A stretch of 64,000 nt of DNA from Prosthecomicrobium pneumaticum (GTDB lineage Bacteria > Pseudomonadota > Alphaproteobacteria > Rhizobiales > Kaistiaceae), in NCBI RefSeq assembly GCF_014199915.1, contig NZ_JACHOO010000010.1:107298-171297 (forward strand), written 5' to 3'. A program made the translations under genes and the position numbers. The notes beneath the pieces were generated by a model. The model was not told the origin of the DNA, ran no database searches, and saw only the letters and a list, made by a program, of their open reading frames with translations. Of this stretch, positions 17,294-37,800 are shown in pieces (positions within the stretch are counted from its first letter, which is position 1; each line of letters starts with the position of its first letter).

Positions 17294-17456
17294 GAGAGAA
17301 TCCTCCTCGGGGTACGGGCCGCAGCCGGCTGCGCGGCGACGATTGAGACCGTGATCGGGGGCCGCCGTCCAGTGCGGATCGTCTTCGCACGGCAAACCGC
17401 CGGCCCGCTCCGGCGCCGGCAGGGGACGGGCCGCCCGCGGGCGAAGGGGCCGTCTC

Positions 17457-18170: not shown

Positions 18171-19237
18171 CAGGGAGCGTCCGGGATCAGCACGCCGCTC
18201 TCCGGCTGCCATCCGATGGTGACCCGCTCGCCGAGCGATGGCATCCCGCCGCCGACATTCACGCGCTCGCCGCGGACGATGAGGCTGGGCGAGAGCCGGG
18301 CGGTGAAGCGCAGATGCGCGCCGTGATAGGCGATCTCCTCGATCGTCGCCGGATAGCGGTTCGCGGCGTCGGCGGCGCCGATCAGAACGTGCTCGGGCCG
18401 CACCATCAGCGTGGCGCGGCGTCCCGCCGCCTCGGTGGCGGGCGCGAGCGCCTTCGACCCGTCGTCGAGCGCGACCGTTGCGAGCGCACCCGTCGCGCCC
18501 TCGACCCGGCAGGAGAAGAGGTTCGATTCGCCGATGAAATCGGCGACGAAGCGGGTCGCCGGCCGCTCGTAGATCTCGGCCGGCGTGCCGATCTGCTGCA
18601 CGACGCCCTTGCTCATCACGGCGATCCGGTCCGACAGCGAGAGCGCCTCGTCCTGGTCGTGCGTGACATAGATCGTGGTGATGCCGAGCTCGTGCTGCAG
18701 CCGCTTCAGCCAGACGCGCATCTCGTCGCGCAGCCGCTTGTCGAGGGCGGAGAGCGGCTCGTCGAGGAGGAGCAGGCGCGGTTCGAGCACGATGACGCGG
18801 GCGAGCGCGACGCGCTGCTGCTCGCCGCCCGAGAGCTGCGAGGGGGAGCGGTTTTCATAGCCGACGAGCCCGACCTGTTCGAGCGCCCGGCCGACCGCGG
18901 CGGCGATCGTGGCCTTGTCGTGCTTCCTGAGCTTGAGGCCGTAGCCGATGTTCTGCGCCACCGTCATGTGCGGGAAGATGGCGTAGTTCTGGAAGACGAT
19001 GCCGATCGCCCGACGCTCCGGCGGCAGGGCGGTGACGTCTTCGCCGCCGAGCCGGATGGTGCCGCTCGACGGCGCAACGAAGCCGGCGATCATCCTCAGC
19101 GTCGTCGACTTGCCGCAGCCGGACGGGCCGAGCAGGGAGAAGAATTCGCCCTTCTCCACCGAGAAGTCGGATCGCGCCACGGCCGGCGGGCCCTCGCCAT
19201 AGGATTTGGCGACGCCGATCAGCTCGACCTGTCTCAT
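18170..19237 (-). CDS. Polyamine/opine-type ABC transporter ATP-binding protein (PotA-like)
   Basis: 355 residues: Walker A GPSGCGKSTT, Q-loop FQNYAIFPHMTV, signature LSGGEQQRVALAR, Walker B LLLLDEPLSALDKRLR and H-loop YVTHDQDEAL. A C-terminal TOBE domain is present (LMVRPEHVLIG region). ATG at 19237 gives a normal start; an upstream GTG at 19282 would add 15 residues. It works with the binding protein and two permeases encoded upstream in the same operon. Confidence 0.94.
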   Translation of the reverse strand: MRQVELIGVAKSYGEGPPAVARSDFSVEKGEFFSLLGPSGCGKSTTLRMIAGFVAPSSGTIRLGGEDVTALPPERRAIGIVFQNYAIFPHMTVAQNIGYGLKLRKHDKATIAAAVGRALEQVGLVGYENRSPSQLSGGEQQRVALARVIVLEPRLLLLDEPLSALDKRLRDEMRVWLKRLQHELGITTIYVTHDQDEALSLSDRIAVMSKGVVQQIGTPAEIYERPATRFVADFIGESNLFSCRVEGATGALATVALDDGSKALAPATEAAGRRATLMVRPEHVLIGAADAANRYPATIEEIAYHGAHLRFTARLSPSLIVRGERVNVGGGMPSLGERVTIGWQPESGVLIPDAP

Positions 19238-19337
19238 CTCGCTCGCGCTCCGTCGGTCATGGGTGGGGTCGGCCGCGGTCACGGCTCTCGGGGGCAGGGG
19301 TCGTGACCGCGGCCGGGGGCAGGCCTGTTCGAACCGA

Positions 19338-20528
19338 TCAGCTCGAGAAGATCGCGTTCAGGGTGTCGACGATCTGCGACTGGTTCGAGATGTACCAGCG
19401 CCAATCCGGCATGAACAGGCCGGCGAAATCATCCGCCGTTCCCTTGTAACCCAACTGCGTCATCTTCGGCGAGATGGTCGCCTTCAGGTTGATCGGGTGG
19501 AAGTAGAGCGCGTCCGACCACATGGTCTGGCCCGCCGGGCTGCAATATTGCTCGAGCAGGGCGTAGGCGAGCTTCTTCTTCATCGGCGAAGAGCCCTTCG
19601 AGACCGCCGAATGCATCTGGTTGAAGGGCGAGACCTCCTTCGCCGCGACCCAGTCGATCGGCAGGCCGCGCTCCTTCTGCAGCAGCGCCTCGCCATCCGT
19701 CTGCCAGGCGATCTCGACCTCGCCGCGCTCCATCAGGTTCATCGTCTCGCCGGTGAAGGGCGAGATGATCCAGGGCTTGCCTTCGACGAATTTGTCGAAG
19801 CCGGTCTGCATGTCGTACTGGTCCTTGCCCCAGATCTTCGACACCGACATGAAGAGGATCGCCTGCAGGTCGTTGATCGGCCCGTAGATGGCGCGGGTGT
19901 TCTCGTATTTCTTGTTCCACAGCTCGGCGAGCGAGTTCGGCGGCGTGGTGATGACGTCGGTGCGGTAGGCGATGCCCATGACGTGCAGCGCCCAGATGAC
20001 GCCGGGGCCGTAGAAGGCGATGTCGGGCCACATGTCGGCGAGCGAGGGGACGTTCGCCTTCAGCTCCTCGCGGCTCGTGAAGAAGCCGCGCGCCTCGAGG
20101 TTGATCGCCTCGGGCAGGTTGCCGTTATAGAGGTCGATCGGCGGATTGTCCGGCCCGGCGAGCGACATCTTCGAGAACCAGGGCGCATTCGAATCGTAGA
20201 CGACCTTGCAGTTGAAGTCGGTCTCGAACTTGTCGATGATTCCCTTGCGGGCGAAATCTTCCATCTCGCCGCCCCAATGGGCGATCGTCACGGTCTCGCC
20301 GCCGGCGTCGAACGGCTTGCCGTCCCACAGCACCTCCGCCGGGCCGCCTTCGGCGGCATGGGCGACCGACTTGTCGCTCATCACGAGCGCCACCGCCGTG
20401 CTCGACAGGCCGAGCGCGAAGAGGCCCTGAAGCAGCGTGCGCCGGTTCATCTCGCCGCCGGCATAGCGGGCCTGCATCGTCTCGATCGTCCGGATCAGCC
20501 GATCCGTGTCCTTCGTGGTCTTGTCCAT
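19338..20528 (-). CDS. Spermidine/putrescine-type periplasmic binding protein, Tat-exported
   Basis: 396 residues. A 26-residue leader precedes a twin-arginine motif (MNRRTLLQG) and a hydrophobic FALGLSSTAVALV segment, ending near AHAA. The mature protein is a PotD-like fold (VTIAHWGGEMEDF, PPIDLYNGNLPEAI, AYALLEQYCSPAGQ). Ligands in this family range from polyamines to opines and modified amino acids. The racemase-like and M24-like genes in the operon favour an amino-acid derivative over a polyamine (inference). Confidence 0.92.
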   Translation of the reverse strand: MDKTTKDTDRLIRTIETMQARYAGGEMNRRTLLQGLFALGLSSTAVALVMSDKSVAHAAEGGPAEVLWDGKPFDAGGETVTIAHWGGEMEDFARKGIIDKFETDFNCKVVYDSNAPWFSKMSLAGPDNPPIDLYNGNLPEAINLEARGFFTSREELKANVPSLADMWPDIAFYGPGVIWALHVMGIAYRTDVITTPPNSLAELWNKKYENTRAIYGPINDLQAILFMSVSKIWGKDQYDMQTGFDKFVEGKPWIISPFTGETMNLMERGEVEIAWQTDGEALLQKERGLPIDWVAAKEVSPFNQMHSAVSKGSSPMKKKLAYALLEQYCSPAGQTMWSDALYFHPINLKATISPKMTQLGYKGTADDFAGLFMPDWRWYISNQSQIVDTLNAIFSS

Positions 20529-20580
20529 CTCTCGTGTCCCTGCGTCGTTGTTGGCTTCAGAAAGTCCGTCCTTGTTCGCG

Positions 20581-21390
20581 TCAGCCTTTCGGCGCGGCGC
20601 GCTTCCCTTTCCTGTTGGTGAGGACGTGGACGAGCGTCATGCTCAGGAAGACGGTGGAGATCGCGAACACGCCGGCGGCGGCGATGGTCGGATCGGTGCG
20701 GTAGCGAATGGAATCGTAGAGCGCGACCGGCAGCGGCCGCATCTCGCTCGTCGCCAGGAACAGCGAGATGTCGAACTGGCCGAAGGAGACGATGAAGGCG
20801 AAGGTGGCGCCGGCGAGGATGCCCTGCGCCGTCACGCGCATCGTCACGTCGAAGAAGGCGCGCACGGGTCCGGCGCCGAGGCTGCGCGCCGCCTCTTCGA
20901 GCGACCGGTCGAAGCGGGCGAGCGCGGCCCCCACGGTCGCGATCACGAAGGGCAGCGTGACGAGGACATGGGCGAGGAGAAGGCCCGAGAAGGTCCGGAA
21001 GAGGCCCATCTGGATCGCCGCATAGAAGGAGAGGAGGGCGAGGCCGAGCACCATGCCGGGCAGGACGATCGGCGCCAGCATGACGGCCCGCAGCACCTCC
21101 CGGCCGCGGAAGCGCAGCCGGACGAGCGCGAGCGCGGCCGCCGTGCCGAGCACGGTCGAGATGAGCGTCGCGCAGAAGGCGAGCCGAAAGGAGAAGGTAA
21201 AACTCTCGCGAAACAGCGGGCCGGTGAGGAAGGCCTCGATCCAGCGCAGCGACAGGCCCTGCGGCGGGAATTGCAGGTAATTGCCCTCGTTGAAGGCCGC
21301 GACCACGGTCACGACGGTCGGCGCGAGCAGAAGCAGCAGCGCGACGGCGGCGATCGCCTTGAAGACGAAGGGGCTCTCGCTCGTCTCCAT
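20581..21390 (-). CDS. ABC transporter permease (PotC-like)
   Basis: 269 residues, six predicted membrane helices, with the EAA loop in RSLEEAARSLGAGPVRAFF. Its ATG at 21390 coincides with the end of the PotB-like gene, giving a one-base overlap. It forms half of the channel for the binding protein at 19338. Confidence 0.93.
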   Translation of the reverse strand: METSESPFVFKAIAAVALLLLLAPTVVTVVAAFNEGNYLQFPPQGLSLRWIEAFLTGPLFRESFTFSFRLAFCATLISTVLGTAAALALVRLRFRGREVLRAVMLAPIVLPGMVLGLALLSFYAAIQMGLFRTFSGLLLAHVLVTLPFVIATVGAALARFDRSLEEAARSLGAGPVRAFFDVTMRVTAQGILAGATFAFIVSFGQFDISLFLATSEMRPLPVALYDSIRYRTDPTIAAAGVFAISTVFLSMTLVHVLTNRKGKRAAPKG

Positions 21391-22253
21391 CAGAAGCGGC
21401 TCCCGGCATAGCGCTGGCTGAGCGAGAAGGAGACGAGGATGGCCCCGAGGCTGACGGCGAGCATGATCAGGCCGAGCGCCGAGCCGAACTGCCAGAAGCC
21501 CATCTCGCTGACCTGCTGGTAGAGATGCATCGAGATGGTCGAGACGCGCGAACTGCCGAGCAGGATCGGCACGATGTAGGAGCTGATCGACAGCGAGAAG
21601 ACGATCACGGCGCCGGAGATGACCGCCGGGGTGGCGAGCGGCAGGGTGATGTCGAAGAAGGCGCGCCAGCGCGAGGCGCCGAGGGAGCGGGCCGCCTGCT
21701 CATAGCTGCGGTCGAGATTGCGCAGGATGCTGATCAGCGAAAAGACCATGAAGGGCAGCGTCGCCTGCACGAGGCCGAGCGCTATGCCCGTGCGGTTGTA
21801 GATGAGCTGCAGCTTGGGCAGGCCGAGCGAGACGAGAAGCTGGTTGATCAGGCCATTGTTGTTGCCGAAGATCACGATCATCCCGTAGAGGCGGATCGTC
21901 ATGTCGAGCTGCATCGAGGCGAGGACGAGGATCGACAGCCCGGTGAAGACGCGCGGGCTGGAGGTCCGGGCCATGATGTAGGCGAGGGGAAAGCCGAGCA
22001 GTACGTCGAAGACGACGGTGATCGCGCTCAATTGCAGGCTGGTCAGCAGCGAGCCGTAGAAGAGCGGATTGGTGAAGAACCGGACGAGATTCTCTAGCGA
22101 AAGCTGCGGCTGGACGGCGAGGAGGCCGCGCTCCGGCGGATTGAAGCCGATCACGAAGAGCACGAGGAGCGGCAGGATCATGAAGAGGAAGAACATCGCC
22201 GCTGCCGGCACCAGCAGCAGATAGGTTCCGTCTCTCGAGGTCGTGGCGGCCAT
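21390..22253 (-). CDS. ABC transporter permease (PotB-like)
   Basis: 287 residues, six predicted helices, with the EAA loop RSYEQAARSLGASRWRAFF. ATG at 22253 (MAATTSRDG) is chosen; an in-frame GTG at 22307 would add an 18-residue hydrophilic leader. It is the first gene of the six-gene minus-strand operon. The 267 bases between it and the guanidine riboswitch hold the inverted repeats at 22325-22402 and the sigma54 promoter of the divergent unit. Confidence 0.92.
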   Translation of the reverse strand: MAATTSRDGTYLLLVPAAAMFFLFMILPLLVLFVIGFNPPERGLLAVQPQLSLENLVRFFTNPLFYGSLLTSLQLSAITVVFDVLLGFPLAYIMARTSSPRVFTGLSILVLASMQLDMTIRLYGMIVIFGNNNGLINQLLVSLGLPKLQLIYNRTGIALGLVQATLPFMVFSLISILRNLDRSYEQAARSLGASRWRAFFDITLPLATPAVISGAVIVFSLSISSYIVPILLGSSRVSTISMHLYQQVSEMGFWQFGSALGLIMLAVSLGAILVSFSLSQRYAGSRF

Positions 22254-22324
22254 GGGGGGTTCCGCGCTGGGATCGGATGCCCCGGAGGCTCGCAAGCGCC
22301 GTGCCACTTTTCGATGAAGGCAAA

Positions 22325-22402
22325 GATCGTCGAAACCTAGGGACTCATTCGACGATCCATGTCAGTCTGGCCATAACTTTCGGCAAATGCCCACATCGTC
22401 GA
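22325..22402. promoter_or_regulatory. 10-bp inverted repeat plus a third half-site (ATCGTCGA)
   Basis: GATCGTCGAA at 22325-22334 and TTCGACGATC at 22348-22357 form a perfect 10-bp inverted repeat around a 13-base spacer. The core ATCGTCGA recurs at 22395-22402. They lie between the PotB-like operon start and the sigma54 promoter at 22488. The layout suits an operator of a dimeric regulator for the minus-strand operon, or an activator site about 90-160 bases upstream of the sigma54 promoter. The spacer is long for a terminator loop and there is no T-run. Confidence 0.5.
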
Positions 22403-22487: not shown

Positions 22488-22503
22488 TGGCATACGGATT
22501 GCT
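22488..22503 (+). promoter_or_regulatory. Sigma54 (-24/-12) promoter of the guanidine binding-protein unit
   Basis: TGGCATACGGATTGCT has the invariant GG-N10-GC spacing of RpoN promoters and matches TGGCAC-N5-TTGCT at all but one base. The predicted start site, about 12 bases downstream (near 22514), falls just before the riboswitch aptamer. Sigma54 promoters need an enhancer-binding activator such as NtrC. No clear NtrC box was recognised by eye. Confidence 0.75.
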
Positions 22504-22520
22504 TCGCCCGACACGAGTTG

Positions 22521-22620
22521 ATCGCTAGGGTTCCGGCCTCTTCGGAGGCGCTGCGACCGAGAGCGGTCGCCCGTCCGCTCCGGGCGGGTCCACGGCGGGA
22601 CAAAAGCCCGGGAGACCTCA
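22521..22620 (+). promoter_or_regulatory. Guanidine-I (ykkC) riboswitch aptamer
   Basis: The conserved blocks are present in order: CTAGGGTTCCG at 22525-22535, a G/C-rich stem with CGACCGAGAG at 22554-22563, and the signature ACGGCGGGACAAAAGCCCG then GGAGA at 22592-22615. This class senses free guanidinium and usually turns expression on. After the aptamer, GAGACCT (22612-22618) can pair perfectly with AGGTCTC (22670-22676), which overlaps the Shine-Dalgarno GGGAAGG of the gene starting at 22679. Ligand binding would hold the first strand and free the ribosome site (inference). Confidence 0.95.
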
Positions 22621-22678
22621 CGCGCGGAAGGGGAATGGCCTCTTCCACCCTTGGGAACCCGAGCCGGGAAGGTCTCGC

Positions 22679-23752
22679 ATGCGCTTCATCCGTTCACTGC
22701 CCCTCGTTCTCGCCGCCACGCTCGCCGCGGCGCCGCTCGCCATCGCCCCGGCCGAAGCCGCGCCGAAGAAGGACTTCAAGGTCGCCTGGTCGATCTATGT
22801 CGGCTGGATGCCCTGGGGCTGGGCGGCCGATCACGGCGTGGTCAAGAAATGGGCGGACAAATACGGCATCTCGATCGAGGTGACGCAATTCAACGACTAC
22901 ATCGAGTCGGTGAACCAGTACACGGCCGCCGATTTCGATGCGGTCACGGTGACCAACATGGACGCGCTGTCGATCCCCTCGGCCGGCGGCGTCGATACGA
23001 CCGCGGTGATCGTCGGCGACTATTCGAACGGCAACGACATGGTGATCGCCAAGAACGCCGCGGACGTCGCGGCGCTGAAGGGCGAGAAGATCAATCTCGT
23101 CGAACTGTCGGTGTCGCACTACCTGCTCGCCCGTGCGCTCGAAAGCGCCGGGCTCGCGGAGAAGGACGTCACCGTCGTCAACACCTCGGACGCGGATATG
23201 GTCGCCGCGGCGGCGACCGCCGATGTCACCACCGTCGTCACCTGGAACCCGCTCGCCTCGGAAATCCTCGCCGCCGGCAATGGCAAGGCGATCTTCGATT
23301 CCTCGAAGATCCCGGGCGAGATCATGGACCTGATGGTGGCGAAGACCGATGTGCTCGCCGACAATCCGGAATTCGGCAAGGCGCTCGCCGGCATCTGGTA
23401 CGACACGATGGCGGTGATGACGGCGGACACGCCGGAAGGTGCCGCGGCACGCGCGGCGATGGGGGCAGCCTCGGGAACCGATCAGGCCGGCTTCGAGGCG
23501 CAGCTCGCCGCCACCAAGCTGTTCCCGACGCCTGCCGAGGCGGTGGGCTTTGCGACCAGCCCCGAGCTGAAGGCGAAGATGGACGCGGTGCGGCAGTTCC
23601 TGTTCGCGAAGGGTCTGCTCGGCAGCGGCGCGCCTTCGGCCGACGTGATCGGCATCGCGCTCGGCGACGGCGAGGTGCTCGGCGATGCGGGCAACGTCAA
23701 GCTCCGCTTCGATCCGACCTTCATGAAGGCTGCGGCGGACGGCGCGCTCTGA
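22679..23752 (+). CDS. Periplasmic binding protein of the guanidine/urea-carboxylase-linked ABC transporter
   Basis: 357 residues with a signal peptide ending near APAEA. The mature protein is a taurine/nitrate-type (NMT1/SsuA-like) binding fold of the subfamily found in urea carboxylase regions (KVAWSIYVGWMPWGWAADHG, TVTNMDALSIPSAGGVDT). Homologues are usually named urea transporters, but the guanidine-I riboswitch in its leader makes guanidinium the likelier ligand. It is encoded alone, on the opposite strand from its permease and ATPase. GGGAAGG precedes ATG 22679 and is inside the predicted riboswitch pairing. Confidence 0.92.
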   Translation: MRFIRSLPLVLAATLAAAPLAIAPAEAAPKKDFKVAWSIYVGWMPWGWAADHGVVKKWADKYGISIEVTQFNDYIESVNQYTAADFDAVTVTNMDALSIPSAGGVDTTAVIVGDYSNGNDMVIAKNAADVAALKGEKINLVELSVSHYLLARALESAGLAEKDVTVVNTSDADMVAAAATADVTTVVTWNPLASEILAAGNGKAIFDSSKIPGEIMDLMVAKTDVLADNPEFGKALAGIWYDTMAVMTADTPEGAAARAAMGAASGTDQAGFEAQLAATKLFPTPAEAVGFATSPELKAKMDAVRQFLFAKGLLGSGAPSADVIGIALGDGEVLGDAGNVKLRFDPTFMKAAADGAL

Positions 23753-23761
23753 GGCCTCGGC

Positions 23762-23796
23762 GAAGGCATGGCGGCGCGGGACGCCGCCATGCCTTC
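23762..23796. terminator. 15-bp perfect hairpin between convergent guanidine genes
   Basis: GAAGGCATGGCGGCG at 23762-23776 pairs perfectly with CGCCGCCATGCCTTC at 23782-23796 around a five-base loop. It lies in the 77-base gap between two convergent genes and can act in both directions. There is no T-run, but three tandem CATGCCTT units follow (23788-23810). It probably ends both transcripts. Confidence 0.6.
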
Positions 23797-23829
23797 ATGC
23801 CTTCATGCCTCGAGGCGATCGGGCGAGGA

Positions 23830-24267
23830 TCAGGCGGAGGCCGCTTCGGCGGCCTTCGCCGCGACATAGGCACGCCAGCCACCGAACTCGGTGATCTCGC
23901 GGGCTCCATTGAGCCCGGCCGGTTCGCAGATGAAGCCCGAGACCTCCGAGCCGTCGTCGAGGGTCAGCTTGCCGATGCCGAGCGGCTTCGGGATGCCGGC
24001 GACGAACCGGCCGAAACCCGCCGGATCGAGCGACCAGACCTCGAGCGCGATGCCCGGACCGGCGAAGCCCGGCTCGCGCACCAGGCCGGGCTTCGGCGGC
24101 ACCGTGCCGGCGAGCGCGAACAGCCGGTAGTCCGGCGCGGTCTTCGCGGCCCGCACGAGCGCCGCGTCGAGCGCGGCGAGCTCGCGGTTGAGCGGCATGC
24201 CGGAAAGATGGGCGCCGACGACCGCGACGGAGATGCGATCGGGCGGGGATGCGGCCTCGGCGGTCAT
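23830..24267 (-). CDS. Stand-alone allophanate hydrolase C-terminal domain protein (AtzF C-domain/AGGCT-like)
   Basis: 145 residues. The sequence VAVVGAHLSGMPLNREL, LFALAGTVPPKPGLVRE, and IPKPLGIGKLTLDDGSE then SGFICE matches the C-terminal domain of allophanate hydrolase almost end to end. In the full enzyme this domain follows the Ser-Ser-Lys amidase domain and takes part in the second half-reaction. Here the amidase domain is missing: the protein starts directly at the C-domain and no amidase signature gene lies in the window. It is the last gene of the guanidine operon, 58 bases after the carboxylase. It may assist an amidase encoded elsewhere. Confidence 0.88.
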   Translation of the reverse strand: MTAEAASPPDRISVAVVGAHLSGMPLNRELAALDAALVRAAKTAPDYRLFALAGTVPPKPGLVREPGFAGPGIALEVWSLDPAGFGRFVAGIPKPLGIGKLTLDDGSEVSGFICEPAGLNGAREITEFGGWRAYVAAKAAEAASA

Positions 24268-24325
24268 CGCGCGTCGTTCCGCCCAAGCGGGACAGAGCGG
24301 CAGGGCCGCGGCGGGGTCGTTCTTC

Positions 24326-27300
24326 TCATTCTTCCGTCTCCATCACGGCGATGATGTCGCCGGCCCGAACCAGTCCGCCGGGCGCGACGCGCAACTGCCG
24401 AACCCGGCCGGCCATCGCGGCGGGCACGGTGATCTCCATCTTCATCGATTCGAGCACGACGATGGCGTCGCCGGCCGCGACCCGCGCACCTTCCCCGGCG
24501 ACGAGCTTCCAGACGCTGCCCGGCACATGGGCGCGCAGCGCCGTGCAGCCCTCCGGGATGTCGGCCTCGGGCATCGCGGCGGCGGCCGTCTCCTGGATAT
24601 AGCCGTCGAGACCTTCCACCTTCCAGCGCGCCCGCTCCGCTTCGAAAGCCGTCTGCTGGCGGCCCTTCGCCGCGCGGATCTCCGGCTCCGCCGCGGCGAG
24701 CGATGCGAGATGGTCGGCATAGGAGAAGCGCGTCTCCTCGATGGCGACCGGGTAGGCGCCGTGCGGGAAGGCGGCGCGCGCCTCGGCGAGCTCGGCCTCG
24801 TCGACGAGGAAGAAGCGAATCCGGTCGAAGAAGCGCAGCAGCCAGGGCTTGCCGGGCTCGAAGGCCGGTGTGGCGCGCCAGCTGTTCCACATCTGGATGG
24901 TGCGGCCGAAGAGCTGATAGCCGCCCGGTCCCTCCATGCCGTAGATGCAGAGATAGGCCCCGCCGATGCCGACCGCGTTTTCCGGCGTCCAGGTGCGGGC
25001 GGGATTGTACTTGGTCGTCACGAGCCGGTGGCGCGGATCGAGCGGGGTGGCGACCGGCGCGCCGAGATAGACGTCGCCGAGACCCATCACGAGGTAGTCG
25101 GCGGCGAGGATCGTCTCCTTGACCGCCGTCTCGTCGGGGAGCCCGTTGATGCGGCGGATGAACTCGATGTTGTCCGGGCACCAGGGCGCGTTCGCCCGCA
25201 CGAGCTCCTGATACTTCCGCATGGCGAGGCGGACTTCCGGGTCGTTCCACGACAGCGGCAGGTGGACGATCCGGCTCGGCACCGTCATCGCTTCCGGCCG
25301 CGGCAGGCCGGCTTCGAGCTCGGCGAGCGCGTCGACGAGCCGCGTGCGGGAGAGCCGGTCGGGATCGTAATGGATCTGCAGCGAGCGGATGCCCGGCGTC
25401 AGCTCGACGATGCCCGGCAGCCGCGTCGCTTCGAGCGCCTCCATCAGCGCATGCACGCGGAGCCGAAGGCCGATATCGAGCGTCATCGGCCCGTATTCGA
25501 CGAGGAGGTTGGCGTCGCCCTGGCGACGATAGACGACGGGCACATCGGCCTCGGCCGGCCCCTTGCCGACCACCGCGGCGCCGAGCGCCGGCATCGCCGG
25601 ACCGGCGACCGGATCCTCCGGCCGGGCCGCCGGAACGAAGCGGATCGTGTCGCCGGGCTTCAGCTGGCCGATCTTCCAGAGGTCCTCGTCGGCCACCACG
25701 GCGGGGCAGACGAAGCCGCCGAGGCTCGGCCCGTCCGGACCGAGGATGATCGGCGTGTCGCCGGTGAAGTCGATCGCGCCGACCGCATAGGCGTTGTCGT
25801 GCAGGTTGGACGGGTGGAGCCCGGCCTCGCCGCCATCGGTCCGCGCCCAGTCGGGCTTCGGGCCGACCAGCCGGACCCCCGTGCGGGCGCTGTTGAAATG
25901 CACCTCGTAGGGCGTCGAGAACAGCGTCTCGACGTCCCGCGCGGTGAAGAAGTCCGGCGCGCCGTGCGGACCATAAACGGCCGCGAGGGTCCAGTCGTGC
26001 GACAGCGTCGGCAGGTCCACCGAGGCCGGCGGGCCGACCGGTTCGCGGGCGCCGAAATGCAGCGCGTCGCCGGGTTTCAGCGTGCCGGTCGCATGGCCGC
26101 CGAAGCCGCCGAGCGCGAAGGTGGCGCGCGAGCCGAGCATTTCGGGCGCGGTGAACGCACCGCGCACGGCGAGATAGGCGCGCTGGCCGGGGCCTGCGAC
26201 GGGTCCGAGCGCCAGCGTCTGCCCCGCACCGACCGCAACCGGCCGGCCGCGCGGCACGGAGACGCCGTCGAGCCGGGCGTCCATCTCGGCGCCGGCGAGC
26301 CCGATCGTCGCTTCGGCATGGAAGCGCAGGGCCGGTCCGCTCATCGTCAGTTCGAGCGCGGCTGCGGTCTCCTCATTGCCGACGATGCGGTTGGCGAGGC
26401 GAAAGGAGCGGGCATCCATCGGCCCGCTCGGCGGCACGCCGACCGGCCACAGGCCGATCCGTCCGGGCAGTTCCTGCAGGCTCGACTGCGCGCCCGGTGC
26501 GATCACCTCGATCACCTGCGGCCGTACCGCGAGGCTGCCGAGCGCCGCGGTCGAGACGGTGCCCTCGCGGAACATGGCGCTCGCCGCGACGGCGCGCAGA
26601 AAGGCGAGATTGGTCTCGATGCCGGCGATCTCGGTCTCGGCGAGCGCCGTTCCGAGCGCGGCGACGGCGGCCGCCCGGTCCTGCCCCGTGACGATCAGCT
26701 TGGCGAGCATCGGGTCATAGAAGGGGGTGACCTCGCTCCCCGTCTCGATCCAGCCGTCGACGCGCGCGGTCTGCGGCAGGCGCACGGCGGTGAGCCGGCC
26801 GGCGCTGGGGCGGAAGCCCTGCAGGGCATCCTCGGCATAGAGTCGCACCTCGATCGCGGCGCCGTCGAGGCGGATCGGCGGCGCGGTCGCGAGGACGTCC
26901 TCGCCGGCCGCCTGGCGGATCATCCATTCGACGAGGTCGATGCCGGTCACCGCCTCGGTCACCGGATGCTCGACCTGCAGGCGGGTGTTCACCTCGAGGA
27001 AGGAGAAGGCACCGCGGCCGACATCATAGACATATTCGACCGTGCCGGCCGATTCATAGGAGACGCTACGGCCGAGCGCGACGGCGGAGGCGAGCAGCGC
27101 GGCGCGGGCCTCCTCGGAGAGGCCGGGGGCGGGCGTCTCCTCGACGACCTTCTGGTTGCGCCGCTGCAGCGAACAGTCGCGCTCGCCGAGCGCCACCACC
27201 GCGCCCCGGCCATTGCCGAAGATCTGCACCTCGATGTGGCGGGCGGTCTCGACGAAACGTTCGAGATAGACCCGCGCATCGCCGAAACTCGCCGCCGCCA

Positions 27301-27856
27301 TCCGCTTCACCGCGGCGAAGCGCTCGGCGAGATCGGCCTCGGAGCGGCAGAGCTGCATGCCGATGCCGCCGCCGCCGGCCGTCGATTTGAGCATCACCGG
27401 ATAGCCGATCGCGGCCGCCGCGCTGCGCGCGGCGCCGAGGTCGTCGATCAGGCCGGAGCCCGGCAGCAGCGGCACGCCGGCCGCCGCGGCGAGCGCGCGC
27501 GCGGTGTGCTTGAGGCCGAAGGCGGAGAGATGCTCCGGCCGCGGGCCGATGAAGACGATGCCCTCGGCGGCGAGGGCTTGCGCGAAGGCGACGTTCTCCG
27601 ACAGGAAGCCATAGCCCGGATGGACCGCCTCCGCGCCGGTCCTGCGGCAGGCATCGACGATGCGGCCGATGTCGAGATAGCTCTCGGCGGCCGGTGCCGG
27701 GCCGATCACGACATGCTCGTCGGCCTCGAGCACCGCCCGGTTGAAGCGGTCCGCCTCCGAGGCGACGGCGACGGAGCGGATGCCCATCCGCTTCAGCGTG
27801 CGCGCGACCCGGCCGACGATCTCGCCGCGATTGGCGATCAGAACCTTGCCGAACAT
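24326..27856 (-). CDS. Biotin-dependent urea/guanidine carboxylase
   Basis: 1176 residues. An N-terminal biotin carboxylase (FGKVLIANRGEI; ATP-grasp loop KSTAGGGGIGMQ; HIEVQIFGNGRG; about residues 1-450) is followed by the AHS2-type carboxyltransferase half (from VIAPGAQSSLQELPGRIG), the AHS1/KipI-like half (ANLLVEYGPMTLDIGLRLRV), a linker, and a biotinyl domain with ESMKMEI (lysine near residue 1139). The enzyme carboxylates urea or guanidine using ATP, bicarbonate and biotin. The riboswitch and the two UAAP genes in the operon favour guanidine, giving carboxyguanidine. ATG at 27856 sits one base after the preceding stop. Alignment of the carboxyltransferase substrate site is needed to separate the two activities. 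Confidence 0.93.
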   Translation of the reverse strand: MFGKVLIANRGEIVGRVARTLKRMGIRSVAVASEADRFNRAVLEADEHVVIGPAPAAESYLDIGRIVDACRRTGAEAVHPGYGFLSENVAFAQALAAEGIVFIGPRPEHLSAFGLKHTARALAAAAGVPLLPGSGLIDDLGAARSAAAAIGYPVMLKSTAGGGGIGMQLCRSEADLAERFAAVKRMAAASFGDARVYLERFVETARHIEVQIFGNGRGAVVALGERDCSLQRRNQKVVEETPAPGLSEEARAALLASAVALGRSVSYESAGTVEYVYDVGRGAFSFLEVNTRLQVEHPVTEAVTGIDLVEWMIRQAAGEDVLATAPPIRLDGAAIEVRLYAEDALQGFRPSAGRLTAVRLPQTARVDGWIETGSEVTPFYDPMLAKLIVTGQDRAAAVAALGTALAETEIAGIETNLAFLRAVAASAMFREGTVSTAALGSLAVRPQVIEVIAPGAQSSLQELPGRIGLWPVGVPPSGPMDARSFRLANRIVGNEETAAALELTMSGPALRFHAEATIGLAGAEMDARLDGVSVPRGRPVAVGAGQTLALGPVAGPGQRAYLAVRGAFTAPEMLGSRATFALGGFGGHATGTLKPGDALHFGAREPVGPPASVDLPTLSHDWTLAAVYGPHGAPDFFTARDVETLFSTPYEVHFNSARTGVRLVGPKPDWARTDGGEAGLHPSNLHDNAYAVGAIDFTGDTPIILGPDGPSLGGFVCPAVVADEDLWKIGQLKPGDTIRFVPAARPEDPVAGPAMPALGAAVVGKGPAEADVPVVYRRQGDANLLVEYGPMTLDIGLRLRVHALMEALEATRLPGIVELTPGIRSLQIHYDPDRLSRTRLVDALAELEAGLPRPEAMTVPSRIVHLPLSWNDPEVRLAMRKYQELVRANAPWCPDNIEFIRRINGLPDETAVKETILAADYLVMGLGDVYLGAPVATPLDPRHRLVTTKYNPARTWTPENAVGIGGAYLCIYGMEGPGGYQLFGRTIQMWNSWRATPAFEPGKPWLLRFFDRIRFFLVDEAELAEARAAFPHGAYPVAIEETRFSYADHLASLAAAEPEIRAAKGRQQTAFEAERARWKVEGLDGYIQETAAAAMPEADIPEGCTALRAHVPGSVWKLVAGEGARVAAGDAIVVLESMKMEITVPAAMAGRVRQLRVAPGGLVRAGDIIAVMETEE

Positions 27857-27857
27857 C

Positions 27858-28517
27858 CTAGAGGCCGGAGGACGGATAGATCTGGACGCGGATCGGCGTC
27901 GGATTGAAGCCGTTGCACGGATTGTTGACCTGCGGGCAGTTCGAGATGACGCAGAGCACATCCATCTCCGCGACCATCTCGACACAGGAGCCCGGTGCCG
28001 AGATGCCGTCATCGATGACGAGATCGCCATTCTCGGCGATCGGCACGTTCATGAAGAAGTTGATGTTCGGCACGATGTCCCGCTTCGTCATGCCCCAGCG
28101 GGAGACTTCGAGCACGAAATTGTCGCGGCAGGCGTGCAGGAATTTCGTTTCGCGGCCGAAGCGGGCGGTGTTGCTCTCGCAGGAGCAGGCGCCGGCCGAG
28201 GTGTCGTGCCGGCCGCAGGTGTCGGCCACCACCGTCAGCATGACCCGGCCCTCATTCGAGATCAGCCGCGTGCCGGTCGAGATATAGGCCGAGCCCTGGA
28301 CGCGCAGCGTGTCCTGCGCGCTGTAGCGCTCGGCGAAATCGTCGGCGCGGTAGAACAGCGTATCGACGGCCTGCTGGCCGCGGGAATCGATCAGCCGCAG
28401 CCGCTCGCCCTTCCGGACGACACCGGACCAGGGGGCGCGGGCGGGCACCTCGACATCGAGACGCGGCGCGGGGGCGACGTGCGCCGGCGCGCCGTCGAAG
28501 AGGGAATGGATGCTCAT
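27858..28517 (-). CDS. Urea-amidolyase-associated protein UAAP2 (probable carboxyguanidine deiminase subunit)
   Basis: 219 residues of the DUF1989 type. Cysteine/histidine-rich segments DTCGRHDTSAGACSCESN and CRDNF, plus NINFFMNVPI and APGSCVEMVAEMDVLCVISN, fit the UAAP2 pattern. Paired UAAP1/UAAP2 proteins are known to form the deiminase (CgdAB) that turns carboxyguanidine into allophanate and ammonia. The order in the operon is UAAP1, UAAP2, carboxylase. The clustered cysteines suggest bound metal (inference). Confidence 0.9.
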   Translation of the reverse strand: MSIHSLFDGAPAHVAPAPRLDVEVPARAPWSGVVRKGERLRLIDSRGQQAVDTLFYRADDFAERYSAQDTLRVQGSAYISTGTRLISNEGRVMLTVVADTCGRHDTSAGACSCESNTARFGRETKFLHACRDNFVLEVSRWGMTKRDIVPNINFFMNVPIAENGDLVIDDGISAPGSCVEMVAEMDVLCVISNCPQVNNPCNGFNPTPIRVQIYPSSGL

Positions 28518-28530
28518 GGTGGTCCTCTCC

Positions 28531-29370
28531 TCAGCCGGCGAGCCAGAAATCGGTGTTCTCGAAGGCGCGGCGCGCCTCGGGCGTGGCCGTCCGGCAGGGA
28601 TCGTCGGCGGCGACCGGAGCGGTGCGCAGCCGGACGAGTTCGATCGGCCCCGGCGCGTAGTCCGGCCGCGGATCGAGCGGGTGCGGCGCGGCCGAGACGA
28701 CGAGGAGGAGGTCCATCTCGGCGCGCAGCTCGACGAAGGCGCCGGCCTGCCGAGCGGCCTCGCCCCAGGCGAAGCGGCCGTCGGAGGCGACGATGACGGG
28801 AGCGAAGAAGGTGACGACCGGGGCGAGATCGCGCCGCGACAGGCCGAGCTTCAGCGCCCCCTGGACGAGGTTGTCGCGGCCGTTGCGGAAGGTGCCGGGG
28901 CCGTATTTCGCGAGCGTGCCGGCGGCGTTCGAAACGCCGACGAGCGGATCGTGCGCGCCGTCCGTGGTGTCCTCGACGATCGAGAGCAGCACGCGGCCCA
29001 TGTCGGAGAGCAGCACGCGGCCCTTGGCGAGACGGGTGGTCCACTGCACCTTCACGGTATCGGCATGGTTGAGCCGCTCGGAAGGGTCGGCGGCGTTCCA
29101 GGCGAAGAGGGCGGCGGCACCGCTGCCCGCCGTGTCGATGAGGCGCAAGGCCTCGCCGCGCGCGAGCCGGAGCGTCGAATACCAGCCGCCCGGCACCGTC
29201 TCGCGCGCGACGATGCGCGCCGGATCGAGCGGCGCCTCGGCGAGGCCGGTCGGCGGCGGCAGGGCGAGCGGCGCCGCGCCGGTGCCGGCGGCCTTCAGCG
29301 CTTCGTAGCGGGCGCGGTGCGCCTCCATCGCGGCGCGGTCGGCTTCGGTCGGCTCAACGATCGTGTCCAT
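28531..29370 (-). CDS. Urea-amidolyase-associated protein UAAP1 (probable carboxyguanidine deiminase subunit)
   Basis: 279 residues, DUF1989 type. Recognisable segments are GGWYSTLRLARGEALRLID, AALFAWNAADPSERLNHADT and GRVLLSDMGRVLLSIVEDT, with GPGTFRNGRDN where UAAP2 has its own arginine/asparagine loop. ATG at 29370 (MDTIVEPTEADR) sits one base after the ATPase stop; the longer frame upstream lies within the ATPase gene. It probably forms a heteromer with UAAP2 and deiminates carboxyguanidine. Confidence 0.9.
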   Translation of the reverse strand: MDTIVEPTEADRAAMEAHRARYEALKAAGTGAAPLALPPPTGLAEAPLDPARIVARETVPGGWYSTLRLARGEALRLIDTAGSGAAALFAWNAADPSERLNHADTVKVQWTTRLAKGRVLLSDMGRVLLSIVEDTTDGAHDPLVGVSNAAGTLAKYGPGTFRNGRDNLVQGALKLGLSRRDLAPVVTFFAPVIVASDGRFAWGEAARQAGAFVELRAEMDLLLVVSAAPHPLDPRPDYAPGPIELVRLRTAPVAADDPCRTATPEARRAFENTDFWLAG

Positions 29371-29371
29371 C

Positions 29372-30199
29372 TCAGGAACCTTCGGGGAGGGCGGCCGGGT
29401 CGTCCCGGCGGGGCTCCGGGTTGGCCGCGTCGTCACGGCCGGAGCGGGAAGAGGCGGCGAGGGCGGTGGGCCGGCGCGGCGGCCAGAGCGCGAAATCGCG
29501 AGTGATCCGCGCACCGTAACGGGCGCGCTCCTCCGGCCGGCCGCGCGGCCGCTCGAAGGCGACGACGCGCGTGCCGAGGCCGAAGGCCTCCGAGAGATCG
29601 TGCGTCACCATCACCACGGTGATGTCGCAGCTGTTCCAGACATACCGCATCAGGCCGTGGATCTCGGCGCGGATGCCCGGGTCGAGCGCGCCGAAGGGCT
29701 CGTCGAGCAGGAGGATGCGGGGCTTCCTCATCAGGGCCTGCGCGAGCGCGAGGCGCTGCTGCATGCCGCCGGAGAGGGCGGCGGGATATTTCTCCTCCTG
29801 GCCGGCGAGGCCGACTTCGGTGAGGAGCGCGCGCGCCTCCTCGATCGCGGCCGCGCGGGCGCGGCCAAAGAGCCGGCCGGTCGCCTTCGCCCCTGCGAAC
29901 TCGGCGCCGAGCAGCACATTGCCGAGCGCCGTCAGATGCGGGAATACCGAATAGCGCTGGAAGACGATGCCGCGATCGGCGTCGGGCTCCTTCGCGATCG
30001 GCCGGTCGTCGACGAGGATGGTGCCGCGGCTCGGCTGTTCCTGCGACAGGAGCATGCGCAGGAAGGTCGTCTTGCCGCAGCCGGAGGGGCCGACGAGCGC
30101 GACGAAGGCGCGCGGCGCGATCTCGATCGAGACGTCCTCGAGCACGATCTGGTCGCCGAATTCCTTCCAGACATTGCGGACGGAAATGGCGGCGGTCAT
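29372..30199 (-). CDS. Guanidine/urea-carboxylase-linked ABC transporter ATP-binding protein
   Basis: 275 residues, SsuB/TauB-like: Walker A GPSGCGKTTF, Q-loop FQRYSVFPHLTA, signature LSGGMQQRLALAQ, Walker B ILLLDEPFGALDP and H-loop MVTHDLSEAF. The start overlaps the permease stop by four bases (ATGA). The C-terminal ~40 residues are Arg/Pro-rich and poorly conserved in character. It energises import of the ligand bound by the protein encoded at 22679. Confidence 0.93.
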   Translation of the reverse strand: MTAAISVRNVWKEFGDQIVLEDVSIEIAPRAFVALVGPSGCGKTTFLRMLLSQEQPSRGTILVDDRPIAKEPDADRGIVFQRYSVFPHLTALGNVLLGAEFAGAKATGRLFGRARAAAIEEARALLTEVGLAGQEEKYPAALSGGMQQRLALAQALMRKPRILLLDEPFGALDPGIRAEIHGLMRYVWNSCDITVVMVTHDLSEAFGLGTRVVAFERPRGRPEERARYGARITRDFALWPPRRPTALAASSRSGRDDAANPEPRRDDPAALPEGS

Positions 30200-31014
30200 T
30201 GGCCGGCCCTCGCCGCGAACCAGGGGAAGAACCGGCGCTGCAGGCGCTTGAGCGCGAGATCGATCAGGAAGGCGAGGAGGGTGATCCAGGCGACATAGGG
30301 CAGGATCACATCCATCGAGAGATAGCGCCGGACGAGGAAGATGCGGTAGCCGAGCCCGGATTCGGAGGCGATCGCCTCGGCGGCGATGAGGAACAGGAAG
30401 GCCGGCCCCAGCGAGAGGCGCAGCGCATCGAGGAGTCGCGGCAGGAGCTGCGGCAGCACGATGCGGAGCGCGATCTGGGCGGTCGAGCCGCCGAGCGTCT
30501 GCGCCTTGATCAACTGCTCGACCGGCAGCTCTTCCACGCGCGCGGCGAGGTCGCGGACGAGGAAGGGCGTGACGCCGATCGCGATCAGCGTGATCTTCGC
30601 CGCCTCGCCGAGGCCGAGCACGATGAAGAGGATCGGCAGCAGGGCGAGCGGCGGCACCATCGAGATCACGGCGACGAGCGGCCCGAGCAACGCCCGGGCG
30701 AGCGGCACGAGGCCGATGACGAGGCCGAGGACGAGCCCGATCAGCGCGGCGATGGCGAGTGCGGCAGCGAGCCGCTCGAGGCTCGCCAGCGTGTCGGCGA
30801 GCATCAGATAGTCGCCGGTGCGCGGATCCGGCACGAAGGCCATGCGGCGGATGCCGTCGGCGAGCGTCGAGAAGGCGGGCAGCAGCTTGTCGCCCGGATT
30901 GGCGGCGAGCCGGAGATCCGAGGCGATCGCATAGGCGACCAGCCCGACGAGGAAGGGCAGGAGCGCGAGGAAGACGGAGAATCCGCGCGACGGACGCCGG
31001 TTGATGAGCCGCAT
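30196..31014 (-). CDS. Guanidine/urea-carboxylase-linked ABC transporter permease
   Basis: 272 residues with about six membrane helices. The cytoplasmic loop LPVEQLIKAQTLGGSTAQIA stands where SsuC/TauC permeases carry the EAA motif. ATG at 31014 gives MRLINRRPSRGF, a natural hydrophilic start before the first helix. No good ribosome site lies directly upstream: the stop codon of the 15-codon leader frame is nine bases away, so translation may depend on coupling to it. It is the first large gene after the minus-strand riboswitch. Confidence 0.9.
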   Translation of the reverse strand: MRLINRRPSRGFSVFLALLPFLVGLVAYAIASDLRLAANPGDKLLPAFSTLADGIRRMAFVPDPRTGDYLMLADTLASLERLAAALAIAALIGLVLGLVIGLVPLARALLGPLVAVISMVPPLALLPILFIVLGLGEAAKITLIAIGVTPFLVRDLAARVEELPVEQLIKAQTLGGSTAQIALRIVLPQLLPRLLDALRLSLGPAFLFLIAAEAIASESGLGYRIFLVRRYLSMDVILPYVAWITLLAFLIDLALKRLQRRFFPWFAARAGQ

Positions 31015-31022
31015 CGGCGGTC

Positions 31023-31070
31023 TCAGCCCGTCGCGGCGCGGATCACGGGCGAGGCGGTCTTTTGCGACAT
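31023..31070 (-). CDS. Possible 15-residue leader peptide between riboswitch and permease
   Basis: ATG at 31070 opens a 15-codon frame (MSQKTASPVIRAATG) ending nine bases before the permease ATG. It has the best ribosome site in the leader, GGAGGA at 31083-31078, seven bases upstream. That site can pair with TCCTCC at 31099-31094, so its access may be ligand-controlled. Whether the peptide is made, or only couples translation to the permease, cannot be told from sequence. Confidence 0.4.
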   Translation of the reverse strand: MSQKTASPVIRAATG

Positions 31071-31136
31071 GGTCCGGTCCTCCGACAAGCGTTGGAGGAT
31101 GGGCGAGACCCGGCCTGCCCATCCCGAGGCGTGCGA

Positions 31137-31243
31137 GGTCTCCCGGGCTTTTGTCCCGCCGTGCCCGGGGGCGGATGTCTCCCGCCCCGGCGGCAGCTCT
31201 CGGACCAGCGTCTCATCTCGAGACCGGAACCCTAGCCGCCAAC
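31137..31243 (-). promoter_or_regulatory. Guanidine-I (ykkC) riboswitch aptamer of the carboxylase/transport operon
   Basis: Reading the minus strand, CTAGGGTTCCG (31235-31225), GGTCCGAGAG (about 31207-31198) and CACGGCGGGACAAAAGCCCG then GGAGA occur in the same order as in the copy at 22521. Downstream, GAGACC (31142-31137) can pair with GGTCTC (31110-31105). GGATGGGC (31124-31117) can pair with GCCCATCC (31104-31097). TCCTCC (31099-31094) can pair with the ribosome site GGAGGA (31083-31078). The last two stems share bases and exclude one another, a plausible translational on/off platform. Confidence 0.95.
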
Positions 31244-31257
31244 TCGATCGAGTAACA

Positions 31258-31273
31258 TGCATCGGCTGTGCCA
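31258..31273 (-). promoter_or_regulatory. Sigma54 (-24/-12) promoter of the guanidine carboxylase operon
   Basis: On the minus strand TGGCACAGCCGATGCA matches TGGCAC-N5-TTGCA at all but one consensus base, with exact GG-N10-GC spacing. The predicted start, near 31248, lies a few bases before the riboswitch. The layout is the same as that of the plus-strand unit at 22488. Confidence 0.78.
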
Positions 31274-34834: not shown

Positions 34835-37800
34835 ATGCAGATCGCGACTGGTACGCCCGGCCCTGCGCCGGTGCGCTCGAAGCTCGGGGCCGTGCGGCGG
34901 CAGGCGCTGACCGGCGTTTCCGTCCTCGCGCTGACCCTCGGCATGGCGGCGCTCGGTGCCGGGGAAGGACGGGCGGACGACCGCAAGCAGATCGATGGCG
35001 GCGGCACGGTCGGGACCATGCTGACCGACGGCTCGGTCCGCTCGAGCGTTGCGGCCGATTCGGACGTCATGACCGAGGTCGGCAGCGGCACCAATGAGTG
35101 GCTCGTCGAGGACGCGGTCTTCAGCAATTTCGTCACCACCGGCGGCGCGGGCAGCGGCGGCGGCGCGGGCCTCGGCGGTGTGTTCTTCGTCGACGAGAAC
35201 GTCTCGCTGACGATCCGCAACGTCGACTTCTACGACAACACGGCGCGTGGCGGCACCGGCGGCAGCGCACCCGGCAGCAAGCTCGGCACCGTCGGTTACA
35301 ATCTGCGCGCCAACGACATCGGCATCGACGCGATCGGGAATTTCCAGGTCAAGCCGACGCTGATCGAGGACGGCAGCACCTATTACGTCAAGGAAATCGA
35401 GCTGCCGCAGGCGAACGCGATGCTGAAGGTCGGCATGTCGGTGTTCCTGCCGGGCTCCGACACGCCGGCGACGATCGCCTCCATCTCCGGCAAGACGATT
35501 ACCTTTACGGACAATGTGGAGATTCCGGCGGACCTTGTCACCGCGCCGGATACCTACGCGGCGACCGCGACGCTCGCCAGCAACCAGATCCAGCTCGACC
35601 CGACCGTGGCGGCGAAGCTCGCCTTCGGCTCGACCGTGACCGGCACGGGCATTCCCGCCGGCACCGTCGTCGAGAGCGTCGATCCGTCGACCGGCGTCAT
35701 CACACTCAGCAAGGCGCACACCTACACGCCGCCGACTTACTTCCCCGGCATTCCGAGCGGCCTCACCTTTATCGGCCTCACCGGTTTCGACGCCTCGCAG
35801 GTCTCGGCGGCGGCGAACGGCTCCGGCTCCGAGGGCAGCATCACGCTCGTCTCGGAGAATGCCGCGCTCAAGGTCGGCATGGTGCTGACCGGCGAGGGGC
35901 TGCCGGAGGCGGGCGTCAAGATCACCAAGATCGAAGGCAGTGTCATCACGGTCGAGAAGCCGTCCGGCTTCTCCTTCGATCCCGACAACCCGCCGCGCGC
36001 CTTCGAGGCCGCCTTCAACCCGGTGACCGTCGTCGGCAGCCAGACCGAGGTCCTGCTGCCGAACGGCGTGACCGGGCTGACGGTCGGCATGAGCGTCACC
36101 GGCAGCGGCATACCCGCCGACGCCAGGATCGTCGGCATCGACGCGGCGCGCGGCGTCGTCATCCTCGACAAGGTGATCGAGGATCTGCCGTCGAACATCG
36201 CCTTCTCGCCGTTCCAGGCGGTGACGGCGAGCGGCGGCCAGACCCAGATCACCGTCGCCGATGCCGCCTCGCTCGGCACGGTCAGGGCCGGCATGGTCGT
36301 CTCGGGTCCGGGCATTCCGCCCGGCACGACGGTGATCAGCGTCGTTGGCAAGACGGTGACGCTCTCGGCCGCGGTCGCTTCGGCCGATCTCGACGGCCTG
36401 CTGAAGGGCAATCTGAGCTTCGATTCGCCGCTCAGCACCGGCGGCGCGCTCAACGGGCTCACCGCCCCGCTCGCCAGCGCCGGCAATGGCCGAAGCGGAA
36501 ACAACGGCTTGGGCGGCTCCGATGACGGCGAAGGTCAGGACGGGCGGCGCGGTGACGTCGGCAAGAACGCCACCACCGGCGTCGGCGGTCGCGGCGGCGA
36601 CGGCGGCGACGGCAGCGACGGCTCGGGCACCAACGACACGCTGATCGCCGCGGTCGGCCTCGCCTCGGCCGATCTCGCGCTCGAGATCGGCTCGCTCGCG
36701 GCGATGTACACGCCGGAAGGCGCACCGTTCCCGTTCCCCGATATCGCCGATGCGATCGCGCAGACCGGCAAGGTCGCCGCGGCCTCCGCCGCGGTCGGTG
36801 TTGCGGCCGCCGCCCTCGACGAGTGGCGCCGGGCGCTGTCGAACGGCGATGTCGCCGCGGGCGGCGATGGCGGTCAGGGCGGCAATGGCGGCAATGGCAG
36901 CGAGTTCTTCGGCGGCGGCGCGGGCGGCAATGGCGGCGATGGCGGCGACGCCGCACGCTCGAACGGCGATGGCGGCGACGGCGGCGATGGCGGAACCGGC
37001 GGCAATGGCGGCTTCGGCGCCGGCGGCGGCCAGGGTGGCGCCGGCGGCACGCACGGCTCGGGCGTCTCCGTGGCGGACGGCGAGGCCGGTGCCGGCGGCA
37101 AGGGCGGCTTCGGCGCCGGTGACGGCAGCGATGGCGACGGCTTCGGCGGTGGCGGTGGCGACGGCCTCGGCGGCGCGATCTTCGTGCGGTCGGGCGGTTC
37201 GCTCACCATCGAGGGCAATTCGACCTTCGGCGACAACGGCACGATGGGCGGCTCGAGCCTCAATGGCGGCGAGGCCGGCCAGTCGGCTGGTTCCGATCTC
37301 TTCATGATGAAGGGCTCGACGGTCCGCATCGTTCCGGGCGCGGGCAACACGGTCGTCTTCAACGGTTCGATCGCCGACGACAGCGTCGGCAGCTATGCCG
37401 GCGGCTCCTATGCGCTCGGCGACGGCGCCGGCCTGACGATCGGTGAGGGCCACACGATCTTCAACGGCGTCAACACCTATACCGGGCAGACCCGCATCGA
37501 AGGCGGCATGCTGGAGGCTGACGAGGGCGTCGGCCTGCACCAGTACAGCAATGTGAACTTTGCCGGCGCCGGCCGCGACGGCACGATCTCCTCGGCCAAT
37601 GCCGGCGTACTGATGACGTCCGGCCAGTTCAACCGGGAGGTCGGAGACCTCGGCAACCGGGTGCAGTGGACCGGCAGCGGCGGCTTCGCCGCGACCGGCG
37701 GCGACCTGACGGTCAATCTCGGCGGCAAGGCGACCCCGAAGACGCTCGTCTGGGGCGGCACGGCCGGCTTCTTCAGCGCCACCGGCGCCGGCGATGCCGC

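Follow-up and report, generated by a model that had tools for sequence, protein, structure and literature searches.

The 64,000-nucleotide stretch of Prosthecomicrobium pneumaticum DNA analysed here (the window) carries two convergent transcription units, each opened by a sigma54-type -24/-12 promoter element followed by a guanidine-I riboswitch aptamer, and both predicted from their genes to serve guanidine import and breakdown. The pairing of a sigma54 promoter with a guanidine-I aptamer is general rather than peculiar to this island: it holds as a rule among relatives, and the convergent arrangement too has parallels in other genomes. The arrangement suggests a serial AND gate, consisting of sigma54-dependent transcription under nitrogen limitation and guanidine sensing by the leader, a reading that is given a probability of roughly 0.78.

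The two promoters (Table 1) have the exact GG-N10-GC spacing that an earlier note, made by inspection of this DNA, had described, and both are close to the consensus used for scoring (TGGCAC-N5-TTGCW, 11 positions, with the same spacing). The full guanidine-I aptamer that the note had placed behind each of them is borne out as well, both matches covering the Rfam model from position 1 to 107 and passing the Rfam threshold against which the note had proposed to check them, and no other RNA family exceeds its Rfam threshold in the 64 kb. Both leaders would be expected from their sequences to bind guanidine. The T of the -24 element sits 26 nucleotides (nt) before aptamer position 1 in unit 1, and 27 nt before it in unit 2. 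As a rule, sigma54-dependent transcripts begin 12 nt past the C in the GC of the -12 element. The starts predicted in this way are 22514 (+), which coincides with the first nucleotide of the aptamer, and 31247 (-), which precedes it by one base; the positions near 22514 and 31248 given in the note agree with this for unit 1 and are one base off for unit 2.

A score of at least 10/11 is reached by just three sites in the 64 kb, namely the two promoters and a third site at 22306 (-). The pattern TGGCAYN5WTGCW occurs seven times in the whole 4.65-Mb genome (six times for the reversed-pattern control), and three of the seven occurrences stand 26-27 nt before the three guanidine-I aptamers of the genome. 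This whole-genome count, together with the control windows given below, rules out a chance match of the -24/-12 motif. RpoN is encoded in the host genome (TIGR02395, 430.6 bits, cut-off 277.35). The third unit with a sigma54-type site and a guanidine-I aptamer lies on the minus strand of another contig (L034:3871-8574, G000:C3) and contains genes for an ATPase, a permease, an NMT1-type binding protein, a metallo-beta-lactamase-fold protein and a third DUF1989 protein, and no carboxylase. Its first three genes are matched by a unit in four relatives of the same family (G099, G130, G225 and G278), and it possibly encodes an importer or a breakdown route for a guanidine derivative. The inventory of two units in the earlier note holds for the island; the unit on C3, the site at 22306 (-) and the truncation of the allophanate hydrolase discussed below had escaped it.

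The pairing was followed across the host's order in 397 genomes, 101 of which have a match to the aptamer model; the matches exceeding the cut-off number 92 and were used together with one just below it, at 61.9 bits, 29 weaker ones being left out. A site, defined as at least 9/11 to the consensus and beginning 20-31 nt before aptamer position 1, precedes 80 of these 93 aptamers, 38 of the 80 at exactly 27 nt. Windows of the same length contain such a site in 29 of 6308 cases downstream and in 10 of 930 cases upstream, and the thiamine pyrophosphate riboswitch of the same order, at 30 loci, is preceded by one in a single case. RpoN was checked in 30 of the 67 order genomes that have a site, in all 13 that have a site-less unit (three of which also have a unit with a site), and in the host's own genome; in all 30 of the first group it scores at least 364 bits. 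Two of the site-less loci, L028 (genome G358) and L070 (genome G058, with RpoN intact), carry CCCTATACT directly before the aptamer, resembling a sigma70 -10 element.

Beyond the order, a sample of 398 genomes from the phylum contains 45 aptamers over the cut-off outside the order, all of which were used, and a sigma54-like site lies within 150 nt of 38 of them (17 of 1048 in control windows). Three f60 loci in this sample are also among the 50 of family f60 described below, and without them the count is 38 of 42; two loci from the host's own family, left out of the 38 of 45, bring the count to 40 of 47. Outside the host's class the sites are placed farther upstream, at 49 to 99 nt. The seven aptamers without a site comprise the three from f60, one from a genome with RpoN in two pieces (G447) and three from genomes with RpoN intact. 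Named relatives were sampled as the best 80 of 543 loci found through UAAP1, 46 of which were scored as having an aptamer with a text pattern liable to overlook variants, and a site is present at 37 of their 48 aptamers, including those of Rhizobium, Mesorhizobium, Bradyrhizobium, Devosia, Kaistia and Xanthobacter. The 11 named aptamers without it belong to three Rhodopseudomonas, three Rhodoblastus, two Xanthobacter, a bin, Rhodovulum and Sinirhodobacter. A Loktanella bin has a 9/11 site at -67.

Family f60, which belongs to the host's class and, to judge from its size, is probably the Rhodobacteraceae, provides a natural control, having the same riboswitch and genes without the sigma54-like site. 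None of its 50 aptamers (from 47 genomes, with six matches below the cut-off left out) has a site within 150 nt, the control windows giving 12 of 500, and RpoN is absent or reduced to a scrap below 40 bits in 32 of the 47 genomes, over the cut-off in 10 and weaker in 5. In 31 of the 50 loci a TTG begins 33-35 nt ahead of the aptamer; in 36 of 50 one lies within -44 to -28, compared with 4 of 50 within -32 to -16. Its position is that expected of a -35 element if transcription began close to the same point.

These observations are consistent with a mechanism in which the RpoN polymerase would start at both promoters, likely only under nitrogen limitation, with NtrC or another enhancer-binding protein as the presumed activator, and in which the new leader RNA would let expression continue only with guanidine bound. 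Each arm would keep its own cassette of promoter and aptamer, so that the two arms would stay co-regulated despite their separate transcripts. A two-layer gate of this kind had been proposed in the earlier note; the conservation of the site at an almost constant distance from the aptamer in the order, its frequency in the phylum sample and its absence from the RpoN-poor f60 speak for such a gate, and the part assigned to NtrC is only partly supported. A wider formulation, held somewhat less firmly and still judged rather probable, is that in Pseudomonadota the guanidine-I riboswitch and its sigma54 promoter form a portable AND-gate cassette. In the order the promoters would be fixed in position such that transcripts begin with the aptamer's first nucleotides, nearly every piece of a split operon would keep a copy, and where RpoN was lost the class of promoter would have been exchanged and the start point kept.

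Several observations weigh against this gate. Thirteen of the 93 order aptamers lack a proximal site, yet RpoN looks intact in 12 of the 13 genomes and is in pieces in the remaining one (G358); the first gene of these site-less units is UAAP1 in five, the binding protein in four and not identified in four. UAAP1-first units of genus g41 (family f34) are without a site in all four cases (L017, L038, L047 and L050), though the binding-protein unit of two g41 genomes (G034 and G193) has one. The site is likewise missing in Rhodopseudomonas (3 of 4), Rhodoblastus (3 of 3) and two Xanthobacter records, as well as in those f60 genomes that keep RpoN. Within the window, the island has no complete allophanate hydrolase, only the C-terminal domain being present and the amidase part missing. 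An NtrC operator was looked for at unit 1, and no NtrC-type site with fewer than three mismatches was found in 220 nt, and unit 2 has only two loose TGC-N11-GCA motifs, 80 and 61 nt before its promoter. RNA folding gives no clear ON switch for unit 1.

The host genome encodes NtrC (722 bits) and, besides it, an NtrX-like protein (380.6 bits); two more NtrC homologues score 345.2 and 313.0 bits. Among relatives, NtrC-type palindromes are enriched at the right spacing, 7 nt, with 16 of 80 in the order set (7.6 in shuffled sequences) and 20 of 40 in the phylum set (5.8), and seven other spacings gave no comparable excess. NtrC is therefore likely to be the activator as a rule, and is unproven in the window, where the sites are not convincing. 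A somewhat unlikely alternative is that the sigma54 promoters are real and respond to another activator, such as NtrX or a further homologue, in which case the first gate would not be nitrogen limitation as such. In its favour stand the lack of a good NtrC-type site at unit 1, the NtrX-like protein and the two other homologues encoded in the genome, and a 10-bp inverted repeat at 22325-22357, which lies between two sigma54-like sites; however, the enrichment of correctly spaced palindromes is seen in both sets of relatives, the genes serve a nitrogen source, and no copy of the repeat is reported before unit 2.

Another proposal is that an unrecognised promoter of the ordinary sigma70 type mainly drives the units, the sigma54 elements being minor or relics and the riboswitch alone deciding. 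The riboswitch can work behind another promoter, since f60 and some members of the order run these units without a sigma54-like site. A relic, however, would not hold a nearly fixed spacing at 80 of 93 aptamers across many families, nor would relics be nearly the only strong sites in the host genome, and this proposal is accordingly regarded as very unlikely. It is also distinctly unlikely that the two units are not one system, the plus-strand binding protein being a separately acquired or decaying piece and no partner of the minus-strand permease and ATPase. The closest sequence to the binding protein in the sets comes from family f6 (75%) and that to the permease from the family of the host (73%), while rearrangement of the locus is suggested by the truncation of the allophanate hydrolase; against this, the binding protein is a clear member of TIGR03427 with its own promoter and aptamer, a second gene of this type was not found by similarity in the minus-strand unit, and gene trees give the binding protein no well supported place.

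Guanidine-dependent switching in the serial gate may involve pairing of the GAGACC tail of each aptamer with a downstream GGTCTC element (Table 1), a helix regarded as a candidate expression platform. Across the order set, swapped partners give a less stable tail helix than the native pair, with 0 of 2000 permutations equalling it; the same holds, again with 0 of 2000, for a short helix joining the aptamer's first nucleotides to the stretch that follows the aptamer. In the phylum set neither helix has a clear advantage with its own partner (p 0.25 and 0.10). Helices of at least four pairs are formed by 65 of 92 own pairs in the order (swapped mean 52.9, maximum 63), 47 of 50 in f60 (swapped mean 41.0, maximum 46) and 16 of 47 in the phylum set (swapped mean 17.5); the swapped-partner tests are inflated by kinship among the sequences, and the helix count gives a smaller difference than the permutations. 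When the aptamer fold is enforced, the likely start codon is opened in unit 2 and closed in unit 1. A simple translational ON switch that frees the start codon is thus compatible with unit 2 and unsupported for unit 1.

The genes of the island, together with the control elements, are listed in Table 1. Unit 2 is transcribed in the order permease, ATPase, UAAP1, UAAP2, carboxylase and allophanate hydrolase C-terminal domain. The start of the permease was set at 31014 because the longer open reading frame is aligned to relatives by tblastn from residue 38 onward, and the 15-codon frame upstream stops 8 nt ahead of this likely start. Asp696 of the carboxylase aligns (alignment to 5i8i) to N1330 of the K. 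lactis urea amidolyase, an active-site position. An Asp marks guanidine carboxylases and an Asn urea carboxylases, according to PMC12186494, and because the carboxylase has the Asp, unit 2 very likely serves the guanidine pathway. The two DUF1989 subunits of the pathway, UAAP1 and UAAP2, are both present and both above their cut-offs. The lone allophanate hydrolase domain spans positions 431-563 of 563 in TIGR02713 and shares 84.7% identity with the C-terminus of a complete allophanate hydrolase on contig C4 of the host genome (768.3 bits); contig C3 has an allophanate hydrolase match without the C-terminal domain (417.8 bits). The claim of the earlier note that everything between the two promoters is related to guanidine holds in that all seven genes scanned fall into the importer and carboxylase set, with the qualification that the allophanate hydrolase is represented by this domain only.

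Table 1. Promoter elements, aptamers, candidate switching elements and genes of the two guanidine units (positions in the window)
Feature	Unit	Position	Strand	Evidence
Sigma54-type -24/-12 promoter, TGGCATACGGATTGCT	1	22488..22503	+	10/11 to consensus; predicted start 22514
Guanidine-I aptamer	1	22514..22616	+	RF00442, 82.7 bits (gathering score 63), model 1-107
GGTCTC element directly before start codon, candidate expression platform	1	22671..22676	+	Complementary to aptamer tail GAGACC
Substrate-binding protein, putative urea/guanidine importer	1	22679..23752	+	TIGR03427, 516.9 bits (cut-off 333.9)
Lone allophanate hydrolase C-terminal domain, 145 aa, last gene of the unit	2	23830..24267	-	PF21986, 166 bits
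Guanidine carboxylase (annotated as urea carboxylase family)	2	24326..27856	-	TIGR02712, 1743.5 bits (cut-off 1303.85)
UAAP2, likely one carboxyguanidine deiminase subunit	2	27858..28517	-	TIGR03424, 327.3 bits (cut-off 284.7); DUF1989
UAAP1, likely the other carboxyguanidine deiminase subunit	2	28531..29370	-	TIGR03425, 290.1 bits (cut-off 205.95); DUF1989
ATP-binding cassette (ABC) transporter ATPase	2	29372..30199	-	ABC_tran, 111.5 bits
ABC transporter permease	2	30196..31014	-	BPD_transp_1, 61.6 bits
15-codon open frame between leader and permease, GGAGG ahead, possible leader peptide	2	31023..31070	-	Translation
GGTCTC element, candidate expression platform	2	31105..31110	-	Complementary to aptamer tail GAGACC
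Guanidine-I aptamer	2	31138..31246	-	RF00442, 81.3 bits (gathering score 63), model 1-107
Sigma54-type -24/-12 promoter, TGGCACAGCCGATGCA	2	31258..31273	-	10/11 to consensus; predicted start 31247

The site at 22291-22306 (-), TGGCACGGCGCTTGCG, with 10/11 to the consensus, precedes a divergent operon at 15932-22253 (-), which encodes a polyamine-type ABC transporter, an Asp/Glu/hydantoin racemase and a weakly creatinase/M24-like protein, and may share its control region with unit 1. The inverted repeat between the two divergent sigma54-like sites is perfect, with half-sites GATCGTCGAA and TTCGACGATC at 22325-22334 and 22348-22357 and a third half-site at 22395-22402, and is a possible operator. 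On the other side of the island, a 2296-amino-acid open frame at 34835-41725 (+) is rich in Gly and Thr, contains repeats and reads like an autotransporter adhesin.

The usual operon, comprising binding protein, permease, ATPase, UAAP1, UAAP2, guanidine carboxylase and allophanate hydrolase, is cut in two in the window, the binding-protein gene standing alone on the plus strand and the remainder on the minus strand. Among the 26 genomes with several units, a site lies within 150 nt at 52 of the 55 units, the three exceptions being in G034, G193 and G347. The earlier note had singled out the duplicated, convergent layout as the point of interest, but the same layout is seen in G285, G312 and G339, three members of genus g123 in family f34, and the pairing itself deserves more notice. 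There, UAAP1, UAAP2, carboxylase and a complete allophanate hydrolase face ATPase, permease and binding protein, so that the operon is divided at another point than in the window, with its solitary binding protein opposite all the other genes. The split in the window may have arisen by inversion or by separate acquisition, between which neither leader identities nor gene trees discriminate. Devosia sp. Root685 (L268) contains three cassettes of a sigma54-type site and a guanidine-I aptamer in 20 kb, all on one strand.

A comparable design is found in the cyanobacterial glutamine riboswitch genes under NtcA, where promoter control by a global nitrogen regulator is followed in series by a leader that senses a metabolite. 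The sigma class, the riboswitch and the genes all differ from those of the window, and the likeness is one of design, not of membership. Control of genes such as those of the island by guanidine-I riboswitches is established (PMC12186494, PMC11410670). The guanidine carboxylase operons of Raoultella and Klebsiella (PMC12186494) have the same riboswitch class, guanidine-I or ykkC, and the same importer, carboxyguanidine deiminase and guanidine carboxylase genes, and are also divided into two riboswitch-led parts. By contrast, their second part is under a guanidine-II riboswitch and the parts stand in succession, whereas both leaders in the window are guanidine-I, the units are convergent and the promoters are of the sigma54 type; the available part of that account mentions no sigma factor. 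The predicted sigma54 regulon of Pseudomonadota (PMC12316311, as far as available) includes COG3665 (DUF1989, the UAAP family) with 102 target genes, 59% of them named urea carboxylase, and also lists the ABC components COG0600, COG1116 and COG0715 as targets. Within its main text the word guanidine does not occur, and riboswitch occurs once, in the title of a reference. A pairing of sigma54 promoters with guanidine-I riboswitches was not found described in the open-access literature, which does not prove its absence from print. As judged from the sequences, a known riboswitch is joined to a known promoter class, and their conserved pairing appears to be the new part.

Most discussion of guanidine riboswitches treats them as ligand sensors that serve detoxification or the use of guanidine. 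A conserved sigma54-type promoter immediately ahead of them would tie them to the nitrogen-starvation response and would imply that guanidine is treated foremost as a nitrogen source. For annotation, the consequence would be that some of the ABC transporter and urea carboxylase genes given as nitrate- or urea-related sigma54 targets are guanidine genes. If the proposed cassette holds true, an RpoN promoter and a riboswitch in series would be a general design for nutrient operons and not a curiosity.

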